This document shows positions 42,447 to 48,797 of a stretch of 64,000 bases of DNA, piece by piece. The position numbers and the translations under genes were made by a program. Each line of letters begins with the position of its first letter. The stretch's first letter is position 1. The DNA comes from an uncultured Cetobacterium sp. (GTDB lineage: Bacteria; Fusobacteriota; Fusobacteriia; Fusobacteriales; Fusobacteriaceae): assembly GCF_945952365.1 (NCBI RefSeq), contig NZ_CAMFHX010000012.1, positions 1 to 64,000 of the forward strand, given 5' to 3'. Below the pieces are notes generated by a model. The model was not told where the DNA came from and did not search any database. It saw only the letters and a list, made by a program, of their open reading frames with translations.

Positions 42447-42450
42447 GTAG

Positions 42451-42481
42451 AAAAGAGCTAGTTTCGCCACTAGCTCTTTTT
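42451..42481. terminator. bidirectional terminator, AGAGCTAG stem
   Basis: AAAAGAGCTAG and CTAGCTCTTTT around a TTTCGCCA loop. It ends the hexuronate operon on the plus strand. On the minus strand it is the 3' hairpin of the small-RNA-like element that ends the operon coming from 44444. Confidence 0.85.
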
Positions 42482-42518
42482 AAATACAACGAAACTTACG
42501 TCATTGAATATTTTGTTT
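42451..42518 (-). ncRNA. antitoxin-like RNA element (second copy) in the 3' UTR
   Basis: The minus-strand sequence is a homologue of the small RNA at 48688-48762 over about 65 nt: an A-rich start, the hairpin CAATGA-CGTAAGTT-TCGTTG (one arm base changed, A-U becoming G-U paired), then the AGAGCTAG terminator. It lies right after the stop codon of the 42517 gene and has no clear promoter of its own, so it is probably a 3'-UTR segment or processed RNA. Its loop matches 11 nt of the 19-residue toxin-like mRNA leader at 48.62 kb. Confidence 0.6.
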
Positions 42519-43098
42519 AATTAGTTGAGTTACTCACTACTTTATCTTGAGAGTTTTCATTCGTTTTTTTATTACTTTTAGCAAAAATAACTTTGATAAT
42601 TTCTTCAATTTTCCCCATAACCTCGTGTGCCCCAAATCCAACTAAAAACCCTATTCCAACTTGGAAGTATAGAGATTCTGTTGTTTCAATATTAGTAGTA
42701 TTTAAGCTTATAAAACCATGTTGAAATAAGCAAATCATAATAGCAGCTAAAACAGCACCTTGAAGAGGTCTATAAAAATACCATAAGAACCATACTTTGA
42801 TATTGAGTGGTCGATAATATTTTTGATTAATAGGTGTTACAGAATGACCTATATTTTGATAAAGAGCTCTTAGTGAGTAAGATGCTCCTCCAATTAATCC
42901 TGCAATAAATACATGGAAAATAATTGAATATATTTTATTATCAGATAAAATATATTGTTTAAAAGTATCGAATATATTTGTGAATAGTGAAGATATTCCG
43001 AAGAGTATAAAGACTAGATTGCAGAAAGCTATAAGTATTATTAAGCTTATATCAGTTTTGTCTAATTTATCTATTTTTACCAAATTATCTGTAGTCAT
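42517..43098 (-). CDS. multi-pass membrane protein, unknown
   Basis: A 193-residue protein with about four hydrophobic segments (near residues 20-42, 60-80, 110-128 and 145-162), a GLIGGASYSLRALYQN motif and a charged, Lys/Asn-rich C-terminal tail. No family is recognised. It has a strong ribosome site (AAAGGAG) and lies 14 nt after the 147-residue gene in the leftward operon headed by the MBL-fold gene. It could be a membrane effector or anchor for the other two proteins; this is inferred from operon layout only. Confidence 0.6.
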   Translation of the reverse strand: MTTDNLVKIDKLDKTDISLIILIAFCNLVFILFGISSLFTNIFDTFKQYILSDNKIYSIIFHVFIAGLIGGASYSLRALYQNIGHSVTPINQKYYRPLNIKVWFLWYFYRPLQGAVLAAIMICLFQHGFISLNTTNIETTESLYFQVGIGFLVGFGAHEVMGKIEEIIKVIFAKSNKKTNENSQDKVVSNSTN

Positions 43099-43556: not shown

Positions 43557-44444
43557 TTACTCATCTCCTCCTAAGTTACCAGCAATAGAGGCTGAAGAGC
43601 TAAGGAGTAGTGAACATAAAATTTGTCCATCACGTGTATTTTTCATTTTATATCCTGGTTTTTTATAAATCTTATCAGAACCCCCAATTGTGCTTCCGGT
43701 ATTATCAGATACATAATAAATGATATCGTTTTTTCCATAATTTGTTGCCCAGATTTTTAAGGCTTGTTGCTCTTTTCCATGATGCGGTAGCTGAATATGA
43801 TTGTGATCTTTAATAACCTCTTCAATAGCATCAAAACAACTATCTCCGCAAAGTAAGACTTTTGTGTTATTAAATGTAACAGAAACTTGTGTACTAACAG
43901 CATTAATAATAGTTTCATTATTAATAGTATCGCCTTCCCGAGAGTCTAAAGCTTTAGCAACAGCTTCTAAAGTATAGTTTATATCAGGTCCAAGTATCTT
44001 AACATGTGGTGTGATTAGGGTGTTAATACTAGTTAATGTGTCGCAGAGAATCACATTTGTGTTGTTGCTAAGAGAATAAATATTATTGTAGATTTCGGTA
44101 ATATTTTTAGTTACAGACTCTCTAGTTTTTCGATTATCTCCAATTAATTCTAAAAGTTTATCTTTATGTTTAAGAAGTAAAAGTGTGTAAAGGTGAGAAA
44201 TTTTATTATTTTCTATAAGGTGAGGAACTCCCATAAAATGATCGGCATCTTGGTGTGAAAGAATGAGAATAGCTTTCTCATAGTTATTAGTCTTCATATA
44301 TTTAATAACTTCATTAGCGTGCTCAATTGAACCACAATCATAAATAACAAGCTTTCCATTAATATCAATTAAAACACAATCTCCATAATTTGTTGTTGTT
44401 GCATTTGTGTAATGTTTTGAACTTAAAAAATTAATATTTGGCAT
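43557..44444 (-). CDS. MBL-fold hydrolase (ComEC/Rec2-type metallo-beta-lactamase domain)
   Basis: A 295-residue cytoplasmic protein. The N-terminus NYGDCVLIDINGKLVIYDCGS and the metal motif ILSHQDADHFMG (HxDxDH, near residues 63-68), then VLLCGDSCFDAIEEV and IQLPHHGKEQQA (near 212-223), are the ComEC-type MBL signatures. There are no membrane segments, so it is a stand-alone enzyme, not a DNA-uptake channel. Substrates of such proteins are often nucleic acids or nucleotides, but none can be assigned. It is first in the leftward three-gene operon; ribosome site GGAGGG. Confidence 0.8.
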   Translation of the reverse strand: MPNINFLSSKHYTNATTTNYGDCVLIDINGKLVIYDCGSIEHANEVIKYMKTNNYEKAILILSHQDADHFMGVPHLIENNKISHLYTLLLLKHKDKLLELIGDNRKTRESVTKNITEIYNNIYSLSNNTNVILCDTLTSINTLITPHVKILGPDINYTLEAVAKALDSREGDTINNETIINAVSTQVSVTFNNTKVLLCGDSCFDAIEEVIKDHNHIQLPHHGKEQQALKIWATNYGKNDIIYYVSDNTGSTIGGSDKIYKKPGYKMKNTRDGQILCSLLLSSSASIAGNLGGDE

Positions 44445-44589
44445 TTAATTCCCTCCACAAAATATAAAAGTAATAAAAATAGACTCACATCTATACAAGC
44501 CTTAGTAATTATAATGAAAAAATTATTAAGGAAAACTTATGATTGATCAACATATTTATATTATCATAAAATATGTAAAAAATAAATAG

Positions 44590-44640
44590 TTTTACGTAAA
44601 AAACGTAAAAAATGTAAAATAAAGTTAAAAAAACTTTACA
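44590..44640. promoter_or_regulatory. operator region of the HTH / MBL divergent promoters
   Basis: TTTTACGTAAAA (perfect palindrome), a second ACGTAAAA and a third ATGTAAAA occur in a row, followed by the palindrome AAAGTT-AAAAAA-AACTTT, which runs into the -35 of the HTH gene. The 224-bp gap between divergent operons contains nothing else recognisable. These are likely sites for the HTH protein. Confidence 0.55.
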
Positions 44641-44662
44641 AAATGAAAGGTGATGATATAAT
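44635..44662 (+). promoter_or_regulatory. promoter giving a probable leaderless mRNA
   Basis: TTTACA, a 16-nt spacer and TATAAT with the TG-A extension. The expected start of transcription, about 7 nt after TATAAT, falls on the ATG at 44669. The purine stretch AAAGG lies upstream of the -10 and so would not be in the transcript. Confidence 0.6.
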
Positions 44663-44668
44663 AGTGTC

Positions 44669-45364
44669 ATGAAGATAAAAGAAAAATTAAAAAAATATGA
44701 AATTACATTAAATGAATTTGCAGAAGTTTTAAATTTATCGAGACCAACTTTAAATACTTATATTAACCAGTTTGAAGCTGGAGATCAAATTGGTAATAAA
44801 AATTATCAAGAGATTTTTGTAAAATTATTTGGAACGCATGATATAACACGTGAAAAGTTTGAAGAGGTTTATCAAAATTTAAATTTTAAAGCAAATAAAG
44901 ATGAATACACAAAAGAGAATCGTGAAATAATGGATTCAATAATTAAAAAAGTAAAAGAGGATTTAAGAGGAAAAAAGGAAACTGTAGCTTTGTATAAATT
45001 TATAAATAGTGCAATTCATAACTATGAAAAAGATAAGGCTTTAACAGGTTACATAAATTATAACCTGTATCTAAACGGATTAAAGTCGATGGAAAAAATA
45101 AAATTTAAAGATAAAAAATTAATATCAAATTTATTTCCTGTAATGAAAAATTATATTGATTGTAAGCTGAAGTTAAATTTAGAGCAATATAAAAAATTTA
45201 AGGAAAGAACACAAGAAATCGAATTAGGAAGAGTAAAGAAACAAGAAGAGTTAAAAGTAGAAATTGAAAAAAAAATTCGTGAAGAGATAGAAAGAAAAAT
45301 GGAACAAGGATTAGGAATTGAAAGTATAGATATTGAAAATATTTTAAATAGTATTAAGATATAA
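44669..45364 (+). CDS. helix-turn-helix regulator with a coiled-coil tail
   Basis: A 231-residue protein. The N-terminal HTH is KKYEITLNEFAEVLNLSRPTLNTYINQFE (about residues 8-36). The rest is helical, with a long charged coiled coil (about 165-215) full of Glu/Lys/Arg. It probably represses itself and the divergent MBL operon through the sites at 44590-44640. It is followed 67 nt later by an ImmA/IrrE-type metallopeptidase gene, the classic partner that cleaves such repressors in phage and ICE control. The predicted transcript is leaderless. Confidence 0.7.
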   Translation: MKIKEKLKKYEITLNEFAEVLNLSRPTLNTYINQFEAGDQIGNKNYQEIFVKLFGTHDITREKFEEVYQNLNFKANKDEYTKENREIMDSIIKKVKEDLRGKKETVALYKFINSAIHNYEKDKALTGYINYNLYLNGLKSMEKIKFKDKKLISNLFPVMKNYIDCKLKLNLEQYKKFKERTQEIELGRVKKQEELKVEIEKKIREEIERKMEQGLGIESIDIENILNSIKI

Positions 45365-45431
45365 AGATAAAAAATGATATAATTGAAATTAGGATAGTAA
45401 TAAATTAAATTAAATTAAAAAGGTGGTAAAA

Positions 45432-45950
45432 ATGTTTGAAAAGAAGGAGATTTCAGACCTAGTAAATAAACTCCTAGAGACAAATGGAATGTCAACAATG
45501 CCTTTGATAGACTTAGATTTGTTATTAAAGTCAGAAGGTATCAAATTATTTAAGTTTTCAAAATCAGAGTGGAAGGATAAAAATTTTCCAGATGCGTCAG
45601 CAATATTGCTAAAAAGTGGTAATGAAAAAATTATAATAATAAATGAACAGGCCCATAAGTTAGAAGAGGATAAGATATTTACGATAGCTCATGAAATAGG
45701 ACATTTCTTTTTGCATACTACAGAAGAAAAACCATATGTTTTATGTAGACATGGACAATCAGGAGATAAAGAGAAAGAGGATGAAGCAGACTACTTCGCA
45801 GCTTGTTTATTGATGCCAGAAAAGATTTTTAAGGAATTAGTTAATAAAGTTGAGATTCCTAGTGTGAAAGTATTTGCAAAAATCTTTGGAGTATCAGAAA
45901 CAACAACAAGAAAAAGATTTTCTGAATTGAACATATTTTGCGTAGACTAA
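45432..45950 (+). CDS. ImmA/IrrE-family metallopeptidase
   Basis: About 172 residues starting at the ATG at 45432, which has AAGGTGG 7 nt upstream (a GTG at 45423 would overlap that site). The zinc motif FTIAHEIGHFFLH (HExxH near residues 88-92) is followed by a distal acidic residue in EKEDEADYFAACLLMP. Family members cleave HTH repressors (ImmR/DdrO) upon DNA damage or other signals. The adjacent HTH protein is the likely target, so the pair is expected to switch this island's promoters. Confidence 0.85.
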   Translation: MFEKKEISDLVNKLLETNGMSTMPLIDLDLLLKSEGIKLFKFSKSEWKDKNFPDASAILLKSGNEKIIIINEQAHKLEEDKIFTIAHEIGHFFLHTTEEKPYVLCRHGQSGDKEKEDEADYFAACLLMPEKIFKELVNKVEIPSVKVFAKIFGVSETTTRKRFSELNIFCVD

Positions 45951-45976
45951 GAGGAATATTAACTTAGGAGAAGATA

Positions 45977-46561
45977 ATGCCAAATAACAATCTTGAAATA
46001 GCGGATATACTTGGGTCGATTGAGGGTAAAGATGAGTTTAAAGTAGATCGTGAAAATGAAAAGAAAATAAGTAATGAAACATTGAATGAATTAACGAAAG
46101 ATATTTGCAAAAAGTTGATAGGGATTATTGAACATTCTGAAAATTGGCGTAAGTTTATTTTAAAACTTATTTTGATAGTGGTATTCTCTACAGTGTTGAT
46201 AGGAATTCCAACAGGTTTGTATCTATTGGGTGAAATTTATTTAGAAGCTTATATAAAAAATCCTGAATTAAAAATGTTAGACCCTTTGGGCTTGGTGGCA
46301 ATATTATTCACATCTTGGAAGATAATATCGGTGACATTAAATAAAATCGTGGATAATATATTTGGTATTGATAAAACATTGGTAAAGGTTCTATTGAGGC
46401 TTTTGAATAAAGAAGAGATGGAGTTTAAATCTGAAAAAGGTCTTATAAAAGATGAGAAAGATACGGACTATATTAAAATTTCTAGACCAACAAGTGTAAA
46501 GAATGTGGTTTGTGGAATATTGGAGTATTTAAAGGCTGTATTTGAAGCCGTGTTAAAGTAA
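45977..46561 (+). CDS. membrane protein, unknown
   Basis: A 194-residue protein with two membrane helices (about residues 58-82 and 105-120), a cytoplasmic N-terminal domain (about 1-50) and a charged C-terminal region. No family is recognised. It begins 26 nt after the peptidase gene with TAGGAGAAG as ribosome site and is the last gene of the rightward HTH operon, which closes at the 46585 hairpin. It might be the effector of the switch or an unrelated cargo gene. Confidence 0.6.
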   Translation: MPNNNLEIADILGSIEGKDEFKVDRENEKKISNETLNELTKDICKKLIGIIEHSENWRKFILKLILIVVFSTVLIGIPTGLYLLGEIYLEAYIKNPELKMLDPLGLVAILFTSWKIISVTLNKIVDNIFGIDKTLVKVLLRLLNKEEMEFKSEKGLIKDEKDTDYIKISRPTSVKNVVCGILEYLKAVFEAVLK

Positions 46562-46612: not shown

Positions 46613-46630
46613 GATGAGAATTTTAGAATG

Positions 46631-46639
46631 TGGTATAAT
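46631..46639 (+). promoter_or_regulatory. extended -10 of rpn copy 1 (shared module)
   Basis: TG-G-TATAAT about 25 nt upstream of the ATG at 46664. The block around it (TTTTAGAATGTGGTATAATA) recurs upstream of rpn copy 2 (47595) and of the DUF1703 gene (49017). Confidence 0.6.
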
Positions 46640-46663
46640 ATATTAAAAAAAGGATGTGATAGT

Positions 46664-47497
46664 ATGTGTACAAGCTTATTAGATCCAAAGATGGATTTTA
46701 TATTTAAAAGTATATTTGGAAATGAAAAAGAGAAGAGTGTGTTGTTATCATTTTTGAATTCTGCGATAAAATCAGAATCACCGTTAGTAGATGTAGAGTT
46801 AAGAAATGTAGAGATAACAAAAGAAGCGATAGAGGATAAAAATAGTAGGTTAGATGTAAAAGCAGTAGCCAATGATGGAACTATTATAAATGTAGAGATT
46901 CAACTTAGAAATGAATATAATATGCCAAAGAGAACACTTTATTACTGGAGTAAGCTTTACTCAGAGCAACTAAAAGAGGGAGAGAACTATTTAAATCTAA
47001 ATAGAACTATCTGTATAAATATATTAAATTTCATACAATTTAAAGAAACACAAAATTATCATAGTGTATTTAAAATTATAGAGGAGAAAGAGAATATAGT
47101 TTTAAATAAAGACCTTGAAATTCACTTTTTAGAGCTTCCAAAGTTGGTGGAGTTTAGAGTTGATGATCCATTATCTGGATGGGGGATGTTTTTAAAAGAA
47201 CCTTCTAGTGATATAGTAGAAGAAGCAGAAGAAACTGTTAAAGAGATAAAATTAGCAAAGAAAAAGCTGTATGTAATAAGTTCAGATGAGGATGAACGTG
47301 AAAAATATAGAATGAGAGAGAAAGCTAGGTTAGATGCAGCCAGTGCTTTAGCTACAGCAGAGTTGAAAGGCAAAGCTGAAGGGGAAAGGTTAGCAAAATT
47401 ATCAATAGCAAAGAGTTTGTTAGGGATAATACCAAATGAATTAATAGCTGAAAAAACAGGATTAAGTATAGAAGAGATAGAGCTACTAAAATATTAG
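46664..47497 (+). CDS. Rpn-family PD-(D/E)XK nuclease, tandem copy 1
   Basis: A 277-residue protein starting at the ATG at 46664 (AAAGGATG ribosome site); an upstream ATG at 46628 would place the promoter inside the gene. It opens LLDPKMDFIFKSIFGNEKEKSV, the Rpn/PDDEXK-transposase signature, with SRLDVKAVANDGTIINVEIQLR containing the D...E-x-Q catalytic block. Rpn proteins are DNA nucleases that promote recombination, and some act in phage defence with an intragenic C-terminal antitoxin. An in-frame ATG at 47312 could start such a C-terminal piece, though its ribosome site is weak. DNA identity with copy 2 is complete for about 600 bp, and only the last 25-30 codons diverge. Confidence 0.85.
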   Translation: MCTSLLDPKMDFIFKSIFGNEKEKSVLLSFLNSAIKSESPLVDVELRNVEITKEAIEDKNSRLDVKAVANDGTIINVEIQLRNEYNMPKRTLYYWSKLYSEQLKEGENYLNLNRTICINILNFIQFKETQNYHSVFKIIEEKENIVLNKDLEIHFLELPKLVEFRVDDPLSGWGMFLKEPSSDIVEEAEETVKEIKLAKKKLYVISSDEDEREKYRMREKARLDAASALATAELKGKAEGERLAKLSIAKSLLGIIPNELIAEKTGLSIEEIELLKY

Positions 47498-47538
47498 AGA
47501 TTAAAATTAGAAAATAGTATGGGAATTTCATTGTATAA

Positions 47539-47573
47539 GAAAGAGCTAGGAGTGAGAAACTAGCTCTTTTTTT
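47539..47573 (+). terminator. rho-independent terminator between rpn copies
   Basis: AAGAGCTAG and CTAGCTCTT around a GAGTGAGAAA loop plus seven T, the same stem family as at 46585. The rpn copy 2 promoter module follows. Confidence 0.85.
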
Positions 47574-47624
47574 GATGAGATTTTTAGAATGTGGTATAAT
47601 ATATTAAAAAAAGGATGTGATAGT

Positions 47625-48461
47625 ATGTGTACAAGCTTATTAGATCCAAAGATGGATTTTATATTTAAAAGTATATTTGGAAATGAAAAAGAGAAGAGTG
47701 TGTTGTTATCATTTTTGAATTCTGCGATAAAATCAGAATCACCGTTAGTAGATGTAGAGTTAAGAAATGTAGAGATAACAAAAGAAGCGATAGAGGATAA
47801 AAATAGTAGGTTAGATGTAAAAGCAGTAGCCAATGATGGAACTATTATAAATGTAGAGATTCAACTTAGAAATGAATATAATATGCCAAAGAGAACACTT
47901 TATTACTGGAGTAAGCTTTACTCAGAGCAACTAAAAGAGGGAGAGAACTATTTAAATCTAAATAGAACTATCTGTATAAATATATTAAATTTCATACAAT
48001 TTAAAGAAACACAAAATTATCATAGTGTATTTAAAATTATAGAGGAGAAAGAGAATATAGTTTTAAATAAAGACCTTGAAATTCACTTTTTAGAGCTTCC
48101 AAAGTTGGTGGAGTTTAGAGTTGATGATCCATTATCTGGATGGGGGATGTTTTTAAAAGAACCTTCTAGTGATATAGTAGAAGAAGCAGAAGAGACTGTA
48201 AAAGAGATAAAATTAGCAAAGAAAAAGCTATATGTAATAAGTTCAGATGAAGATGAACGTGAAAAGTATAGAATGAGAGAAAAAGCTAGGTTAGATGCAG
48301 CCAGTGCTTTAGCCACAGCAGAGTTAAAAGGTAAAGCTGAAGGGGAAAGATTAGCAAAATTAAAGATTGCTAAAAATGCTCTTCAAAATGGGATGAGTTC
48401 TGAAATTGTTTCAGGCATAACAGGATTGAGTGTAGAGGAGATAGAGCTACTAAAATATTAG
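47625..48461 (+). CDS. Rpn-family PD-(D/E)XK nuclease, tandem copy 2
   Basis: A 278-residue protein 961 bp downstream of copy 1 and identical to it in the first about 200 residues. Differences are silent at first and then, after GKAEGERLAKL, the C-terminal tail is distinct: KIAKNALQNGMSSEIVSG in place of SIAKSLLGIIPNELIAEK, before both end EIELLKY. The same promoter block is used (extended -10 at 47592-47600), and the start at 47625 is chosen as for copy 1. A diversified C-terminus on a constant nuclease domain fits the published idea that Rpn C-termini encode or bind cognate inhibitors; this is inferred. Confidence 0.85.
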   Translation: MCTSLLDPKMDFIFKSIFGNEKEKSVLLSFLNSAIKSESPLVDVELRNVEITKEAIEDKNSRLDVKAVANDGTIINVEIQLRNEYNMPKRTLYYWSKLYSEQLKEGENYLNLNRTICINILNFIQFKETQNYHSVFKIIEEKENIVLNKDLEIHFLELPKLVEFRVDDPLSGWGMFLKEPSSDIVEEAEETVKEIKLAKKKLYVISSDEDEREKYRMREKARLDAASALATAELKGKAEGERLAKLKIAKNALQNGMSSEIVSGITGLSVEEIELLKY

Positions 48462-48520
48462 AGATTAAAAATTAGAAAATAGTATGAGAATTTTAGAATC
48501 TTGTATAATTTAACTGAAAA

Positions 48521-48550
48521 TAAAAAGACTAGGTGGGCGAACACCTAGTC
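48521..48550 (-). terminator. terminator of the toxin-like transcript
   Basis: GACTAGGTG-TTCGC-CCACCTAGTC followed by TTTTTATTTT on the minus strand, with a 9-bp stem. It is well placed 9 nt after the stop codon of the 19-residue peptide. Confidence 0.9.
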
Positions 48551-48559
48551 AGTGATTAT

Positions 48560-48619
48560 CTAGTACCCTTTTTTAACTAGTAGGAAAAAAAGGACAATAA
48601 CAAAAAAGATTCTTAACAT
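48560..48619 (-). CDS. putative type I toxin, 19-residue hydrophobic peptide
   Basis: ATG at 48619 to TAG at 48560 encodes MLRIFFVIVLFFLLVKKGY. This is one membrane-spanning hydrophobic stretch with a basic residue near each end, and size and pattern recall the Ibs family (18-19 residues, also ending in -Y); homology is not claimed. The Shine-Dalgarno AAAGGGGGTGA lies 10 nt upstream and is sequestered in a leader hairpin. The space between it and the ATG (TGAAACTTACGT) is complementary to the loop of the small RNA encoded just upstream. The peptide is inferred to depolarise or disturb the inner membrane when translated. Confidence 0.7.
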   Translation of the reverse strand: MLRIFFVIVLFFLLVKKGY

Positions 48620-48665
48620 ACGTAAGTTTCACCCCCTTTCTAGAGGTAGATAACCACTAAAAATA

Positions 48666-48671
48666 ATTATA
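48666..48671 (-). promoter_or_regulatory. -10 of the toxin-like gene
   Basis: TATAAT on the minus strand, just after the small RNA terminator. The -35 region is T-rich without a clear hexamer, so this promoter looks weaker than that of the antitoxin RNA. Confidence 0.5.
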
Positions 48672-48687
48672 CCCCAATGAATAAAAT

Positions 48688-48762
48688 AAAAAAAGAGCTA
48701 GTTTTCGCCCCTAGCTCTTTTTCATACAATGAAACTTACGTCATTGAATCTTTTTGTTTGTT
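48688..48762 (-). ncRNA. putative antitoxin small RNA (about 75 nt)
   Basis: It is predicted from a promoter (TTGATT-17-TATAAT) to a terminator (AGAGCTAG...CTAGCTCT plus T-run). Its 5' part carries the hairpin CAATGA-CGTAAGTT-TCATTG. The ACGTAAGTTTCA in and next to the loop is the exact complement of the 12 nt TGAAACTTACGT between the Shine-Dalgarno and the start codon of the toxin-like gene, with two more G-U pairs. Binding would block ribosomes. It is encoded upstream in tandem on the same strand rather than antisense over the target. A second copy of the RNA lies at 42451-42518. Confidence 0.75.
48693..48720. terminator. AGAGCTAG-type terminator
   Basis: AAAAGAGCTAG and CTAGCTCTTTT around TTTTCGCCC. 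It ends the small RNA on the minus strand and could work in both directions. Confidence 0.85.
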
Positions 48763-48768
48763 AGAAAT

Positions 48769-48797
48769 ATTATACTCTTATTCTAAATAAAAATCAA
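48769..48797 (-). promoter_or_regulatory. sigma70-type promoter of the antitoxin RNA
   Basis: TTGATT, a 17-nt spacer and TATAAT on the minus strand, one of the better promoters in the window. It is stronger-looking than the toxin promoter, as expected for an abundant antitoxin. Confidence 0.75.

Follow-up and report, generated by a model that had tools for sequence, protein, structure and literature searches.

The 64,000-nucleotide stretch of an uncultured Cetobacterium genome analysed here (the window) carries on its minus strand, between positions 48797 and 48527, two tandem transcription units recognizable at the sequence level, namely a small RNA (sRNA) gene and, directly downstream of it, a gene for a 19-residue hydrophobic peptide. 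Comparison of this pair with its relatives makes it very probable that it is a type I toxin-antitoxin module and represents a previously undescribed family, distinguished by a hypervariable, co-varying specificity block. The upstream unit begins with a promoter of the form TTGATT-17-TATAAT (48769..48797; TTGATT at 48797-48792 and TATAAT at 48774-48769), which together with the terminator delimits a predicted antitoxin sRNA of ~75 nt (48688..48762), also supported by its fold and by a covariance model of the sRNA (R2). Within this RNA, the hairpin CAATG-ACGTAAGTTT-CATTG (48746-48727), with a 5-bp stem, presents the hypervariable loop ACGTAAGTTT (48732..48741), and is followed by the AGAGCTAG terminator, AAAGAGCTAG..CTAGCTCTTTTTTT (48688..48722), which is marked by its fold and by compensatory changes.

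The downstream unit has a -10 element, TATAAT (48666..48671), which is shared by most relatives of the window type, and a predicted transcription start at ~48659. Its leader opens with AGTGGTTATCTA (48647..48658), the 5' arm of a long-range 5'-3' pairing, followed by an anti-Shine-Dalgarno (anti-SD) hairpin, CCTCT/AGGGG, that closes the Shine-Dalgarno (SD) sequence AAAGGGGG (48633..48646), and by the target block AAACTTACGT (48620..48629), which lies between SD and start codon and is fully complementary to the sRNA loop. The toxin open reading frame (ORF), MLRIFFVIVLFFLLVKKGY, comprises 19 codons with an ATG start and a TAG stop (48560..48619) and has intact hydrophobic homologues. The 3' arm of the long-range pairing, TAGATAATCACT (48551..48562), overlaps the stop codon, and the unit ends in the terminator GACTAGGTGTTCGCCCACCTAGTC with its T-run (48527..48550).

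The original prediction had named the complete sRNA unit, the peptide gene directly behind it and the pairing of the SD with its own leader, and all of these elements lie where it placed them. It had further described an 11-bp pairing between the 5' end and the segment just past the stop codon; the pairing exists, but is 12 bp long (AGUGGUUAUCUA/UAGAUAAUCACU) and includes the stop codon itself. The proposed 12-nt perfect complement is likewise present, with TGAAACTTACGT in the sRNA matching ACGTAAGTTTCA in the leader, and extends to a 14-bp duplex when G-U pairs are counted, a length of 14 nt being usual in the family. A perfect complement of at least 12 nt arose in 3 of 20,000 random placements of the same geometry in the window. 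Folding, which the prediction had suggested as a check, showed both RNAs to be more stable than shuffled sequence (z = -4.3 for the sRNA and -3.6 for the toxin mRNA), with the anti-SD hairpin and the 5'-3' pairing both contained in the minimum-energy fold of the latter. A scan of the 64-kb window against Rfam recovered no family at gathering score, and a Pfam scan of four family peptides (that of the window lengthened by one residue to 20 aa) gave none above the curated cut-off.

Relatives and the co-variation of loop and leader

Relatives were sought in 98 Fusobacteriota genomes by DNA search, a covariance model of the toxin mRNA (R1), the motif GAAAGGGGGTG and a peptide profile, the peptide search being noisy above E ~0.01; the R2 model recovers the window sRNA together with its relatives. 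Tandem modules were found in three genera, including those of C. somerae (G007), Cetobacterium sp. 2A (G013) and F. varium (G027). The family peptides are hydrophobic, 17-23 aa in length, and usually display a Lys or Arg near the start and a C-terminal K-x-x-Y/F/H signature. In all nine intact window-type modules, a promoter of the form TTGAYT-17-TATAAT lies 22-23 nt ahead of the sRNA hairpin. The R1 matches in seven genomes (G017, G019, G020, G069, G070, G054 and G084) proved on inspection to be ordinary coding or unrelated sequence. In public genome contigs, the exact family pattern matched only Cetobacterium sp. 2A and three contigs from unrelated phyla; phage records contained no match to the family, and among viral contigs a first search was empty and a later one gave a single GC-rich, unrelated match.

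The genome that contains the window (2.5 Mb in 61 contigs) encodes two further intact copies with 76-79% identity to the window module, both with loops unlike that of the window. The copy on contig C46 has a TTG start and pairs TTTGTAAAG with CTTTACAAA, and that on contig C21 pairs TTAATGACTA with TAGTCGTTAA through one G-U. Co-variation was assessed on 20 loci picked solely for having a hydrophobic ORF together with either the SD motif or homology, never for pairing, and duplex energies were computed for every leader against all upstream stretches. Once redundant loci and two that lack a tandem sRNA had been set aside, the leader found its best partner in its own upstream sRNA in 15/15 modules, which come from Cetobacterium and Fusobacterium, the summed energy of the own duplexes being -237 kcal/mol versus -136 +/- 9.7 kcal/mol for permuted partners, with none of 200,000 permutations as good as the own pairing. 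With the two other loci retained, the own partner was best in 16/17 cases (z = -10.7), and the result holds separately for window-type (7/7) and divergent modules (8/8). The corresponding matrix for the three same-genome copies is diagonal, with values of -18.3/-16.3/-16.6 for own pairs and -6.1 to -12.9 for cross pairs. Since the pairing is kept despite changed sequence in all 15 modules, chance can be ruled out as its source.

Conservation within the module is lowest in the loop (0.42) and the leader (0.38), as against 0.77 for the ORF and 0.73 for the terminator; the values for the stem and the SD in this comparison are fixed by the segment boundaries chosen. The anti-SD hairpin and the long-range 5'-3' pairing are likewise conserved in the family; compensatory changes are seen at two pairs of the latter and in the sRNA terminator (C-G to U-A and A-U to G-C). 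In all relatives loop and target have changed together, which would give exchangeable address codes. The original prediction had staked its reading on retention of the pairing and of the peptide frame in related loci, to be sought with a covariance model: the relatives recovered keep the pairing by full co-variation and not by identity, and the frame is intact in every module. The type I reading that it had put forward is supported on both counts, and the tandem, non-antisense arrangement that it had not recognized from known systems holds generally across the family.

Predicted full-length mRNAs keep the SD mostly paired (unpaired probability 0.01-0.23 in 13 modules), and in most of them the target block beside the closed SD is accessible, with an unpaired probability of ~0.5-0.7. 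The predicted sRNA pairing covers the spacer that separates the SD from the start codon, and often extends over the latter as well. The long 5' arm was considered as the sole cause of SD closure and rejected, as in silico trimming left the SD closed. At one locus (L059, G001:C5) the loop/leader pairing and the peptide are intact, with the 5' arm and the anti-SD hairpin deleted, and this module offers a natural test of which control layers are needed. At another (L054, G010:C36, minus strand) a second module adjoins the first, with the peptide MTKIIYFVILFFILAKETY and a matching tandem sRNA segment, AAAGTCAATTTTTCC. Five loci (L159, L163, L166, L183 and L184) form a further group with hydrophobic peptides of 22-23 aa and AAGGAGGTG leaders.

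Stranded antitoxins, altered architectures and plasmid settings

The sRNA is present at 10/10 window-type toxin loci, and the toxin is absent at 5 of 15 strong sRNA matches (E <= 2.3e-9). At one such locus (G004:C27) the terminator of the toxin is still in place, and at another (G004:C21) the DNA matches the window at 97% identity as far as the end of the sRNA and lacks the toxin. These relics suggest that the peptide gene is lost first, as toxicity would predict. Some of the free-standing sRNA copies have their own promoters. The window itself contains an orphan sRNA on the minus strand (42447..42509; R2, E = 4e-10), with the same loop (ACGTAAGTTT) and terminator as the module and neither a toxin nor a promoter of its own, as well as a truncated relic on the plus strand (47512..47574; R2, E = 1.9e-8), which retains the 3' stem arm and the terminator and lies behind a PDDEXK_2 gene. 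A 193-aa minus-strand ORF (42517-43098) runs at its 3' end into the orphan sRNA, which is possibly an antitoxin derived from a 3' untranslated region.

A different architecture is seen in another genome of the same genus (L120, G011:C20, minus strand, ~1720-1020), where two tandem toxin copies lack the tandem sRNA; beside each of them, an sRNA-like unit is instead encoded divergently, which has a terminator of its own and is complementary over ~25 bp to the leader of that copy (-28 kcal/mol in both cases). The reading frames of these toxins probably start with AUU/AUA or an internal TTG. In G008 and G002:C56, related peptides whose SDs are of the GGAGG type have a tandem complementary RNA.

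Many members of the family reside on Rep3 or mobilizable plasmids. A complete circular C. somerae plasmid of 4104 bp encodes a replication initiator, MobC and a relaxase along with the module, which is unannotated there. The co-resident MOBQ plasmids pFV113-g1-1 and -2 of F. varium Fv113-g1 both carry the module in the same place, on near-identical backbones and with different specificity blocks. The copies on G000:C46, G004:C74, G002:C1 and G013:C7 occur together with Rep3-type initiators; on the first of these contigs, a gene for a type ISP restriction-modification enzyme also lies beside the module (L192).

Function, alternatives and known systems

Three general hallmarks of type I systems are seen in the family: a small hydrophobic ORF of 17-23 aa that is intact in all modules, an RNA that by computation pairs with the toxin mRNA in 15/15 modules, and, at the sequence level, a separate promoter and terminator for that RNA. 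The mechanism that we propose is that a constitutive sRNA presents a specificity loop (~10 nt together with the 3' stem arm) that would pair with the SD-start spacer of the mRNA encoded just downstream, thereby blocking translation of a 17-23-residue membrane peptide, probably with cleavage by RNase III. The mRNA would additionally be self-inhibited by the anti-SD hairpin and the 5'-3' pairing spanning the stop codon. On loss of the module, a presumably labile sRNA would decay first and leave a more stable mRNA, translation of which would yield a membrane-damaging peptide; the resulting post-segregational killing would retain the carrying plasmid or island. The family would accordingly serve mainly in plasmid or island maintenance, and as loop and target have diverged together into many specificities, co-resident modules would not neutralise each other.

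Several observations weigh against this interpretation. Modelled trimming of the 5' end does not relieve the predicted SD occlusion, and so does not account for activation of the mRNA. The perfect pairing spans 8-16 nt, at or below the 15 continuous nt needed by OrzO (PMC3919570), and therefore loop-loop kinetics must suffice. Some modules are chromosomal, and an antitoxin sought for the related peptides in G036, G014, G028 and G050 was resolved in none of these genomes. Finally, amino-acid replacements between close peptides show no deficit relative to silent changes, only hydrophobicity and the frame being kept. The last of these would also fit an ordinary sRNA-target switch, in which the sRNA represses a regulated small membrane protein with a signalling or plasmid function. 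We consider this unlikely: three layers of repression, plasmid linkage and multiple orthogonal copies per genome fit a toxin-antitoxin pair, toxin-less sRNA relics occur whereas sRNA-less window-type toxins do not, and a regulatory switch needs no private new specificity for each copy.

The free-standing sRNA copies with their own promoters could also point to a general trans-acting regulator of host genes, with the peptide mRNA as one of its targets or as a sponge. Such a regulator would be expected to keep its seed, but the loop is the least conserved part of the RNA and changes with the adjacent leader, making this reading very improbable. A type III toxIN-like system shares the order of RNA gene, terminator and toxin gene, and such systems are reported in Fusobacteria (PMC4147584); it is hardly tenable in the face of a single hairpin without tandem RNA repeats, a 19-aa hydrophobic product that is no endoribonuclease, and an RNA that targets, pairs and co-varies with an mRNA leader. 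Chance complementarity, or inverted repeats of mobile elements devoid of a regulatory role, would suit the repetition of modules within genomes and on mobile elements, but is as implausible, given that the ends of such repeats should be conserved between copies and are here the most variable yet always mutually matching segments, and that a chance origin is refuted by the co-variation as well as being rare in the random placements.

Within the type I interpretation, the closest resemblance is to zor/orz, tisB/istR and shoB/ohsC of E. coli, which likewise combine a small hydrophobic toxin, a non-overlapping sRNA gene, a short pairing block and a self-inhibited mRNA. The nearest functional precedent is zor/orz, in which a variable pairing region sets specificity between copies (PMC3919570, PMC11264685). 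In all three, however, the sRNA gene is divergent, and in zor/orz and tisB/istR the pairing lies in the 5' untranslated region away from the initiation site, whereas the sRNA of the window and all other tandem modules is encoded upstream on the same strand, with divergence confined to G011, and its pairing covers the SD-start spacer. Moreover, the whole block is replaced between copies in the present family, and a sequence relation to the zor/orz class was not found. The ibs/sib system of E. coli also encodes a 19-residue hydrophobic peptide, IbsC sharing an M-x-R start and a terminal Y, and Sib blocks the ribosome binding site (PMC4147584); yet Sib is antisense over the whole ibs gene, in contrast to the two non-overlapping minus-strand genes of the window. 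Homology to IbsC was not convincing, as class-preserving shuffles reach the same resemblance 0.5% of the time, and the weak similarity may reflect convergence. In the Helicobacter aapA/isoA system, IsoA is antisense to the toxin gene, and both peptide and RNA sequences are unrelated to the family. The par/Fst system of plasmid pAD1 (RNA I/RNA II) similarly maintains a plasmid through a short membrane toxin and a small RNA, but there the genes are convergent and have a terminator with direct repeats in common, unlike the tandem genes with two separate terminators seen here. The layout alone is not unprecedented, because a review mentions parallel orientation as possible for trans-encoded antitoxins (PMC8167048). 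The novelty lies in the phylum and in an address that is loop-based, wholly exchangeable and placed over the initiation spacer.

We lean, by a modest degree, towards a combined extension of the type I interpretation, in which the 10-16-nt loop/target block is a modular RNA address replaced as a matched pair to yield orthogonal plasmid-addiction specificities, stranded antitoxins are anti-addiction elements, and switches between tandem and divergent antitoxin genes have occurred within the same toxin family. If so, orthogonal addresses would let related plasmids coexist without cross-protection, and stranded antitoxins such as 42447-42509 would counter addiction. At least 15 RNA pairs matched by nature, whose strongest differences lie in a short address block, make specificity, cross-talk and the origin of new pairs directly testable. 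The modules on small plasmids would also explain in a simple way why plasmids are stable in Cetobacterium and Fusobacterium. By 2025, type I systems had been recorded in Proteobacteria, Firmicutes and Tenericutes, with one case in Cyanobacteria (PMC12390103), and a literature search limited to open papers found no published one in Fusobacteriota, which would now join these phyla. Within this phylum, the usual sRNA chaperones Hfq and ProQ are missing from F. nucleatum (PMC11005410).

The accessory region around the window copy includes two near-identical PDDEXK_2 genes, together with an AAA-ATPase/PDDEXK_9 gene and defence-like genes. The original prediction had regarded such an island location beside nucleases as fitting; the PDDEXK genes are indeed nearby, but this neighbourhood is incidental because many relatives sit beside plasmid Rep3 or mob genes. 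The two PDDEXK_2 (Rpn-like) genes (46628-47497 and 47589-48461) are tandem duplicates with an sRNA-type terminator relic before each. The accessory genes at 43557-46561 encode a metallo-beta-lactamase-fold protein, an M78/capP-like metallopeptidase, a helix-turn-helix protein and a membrane protein, and possibly form a defence operon.
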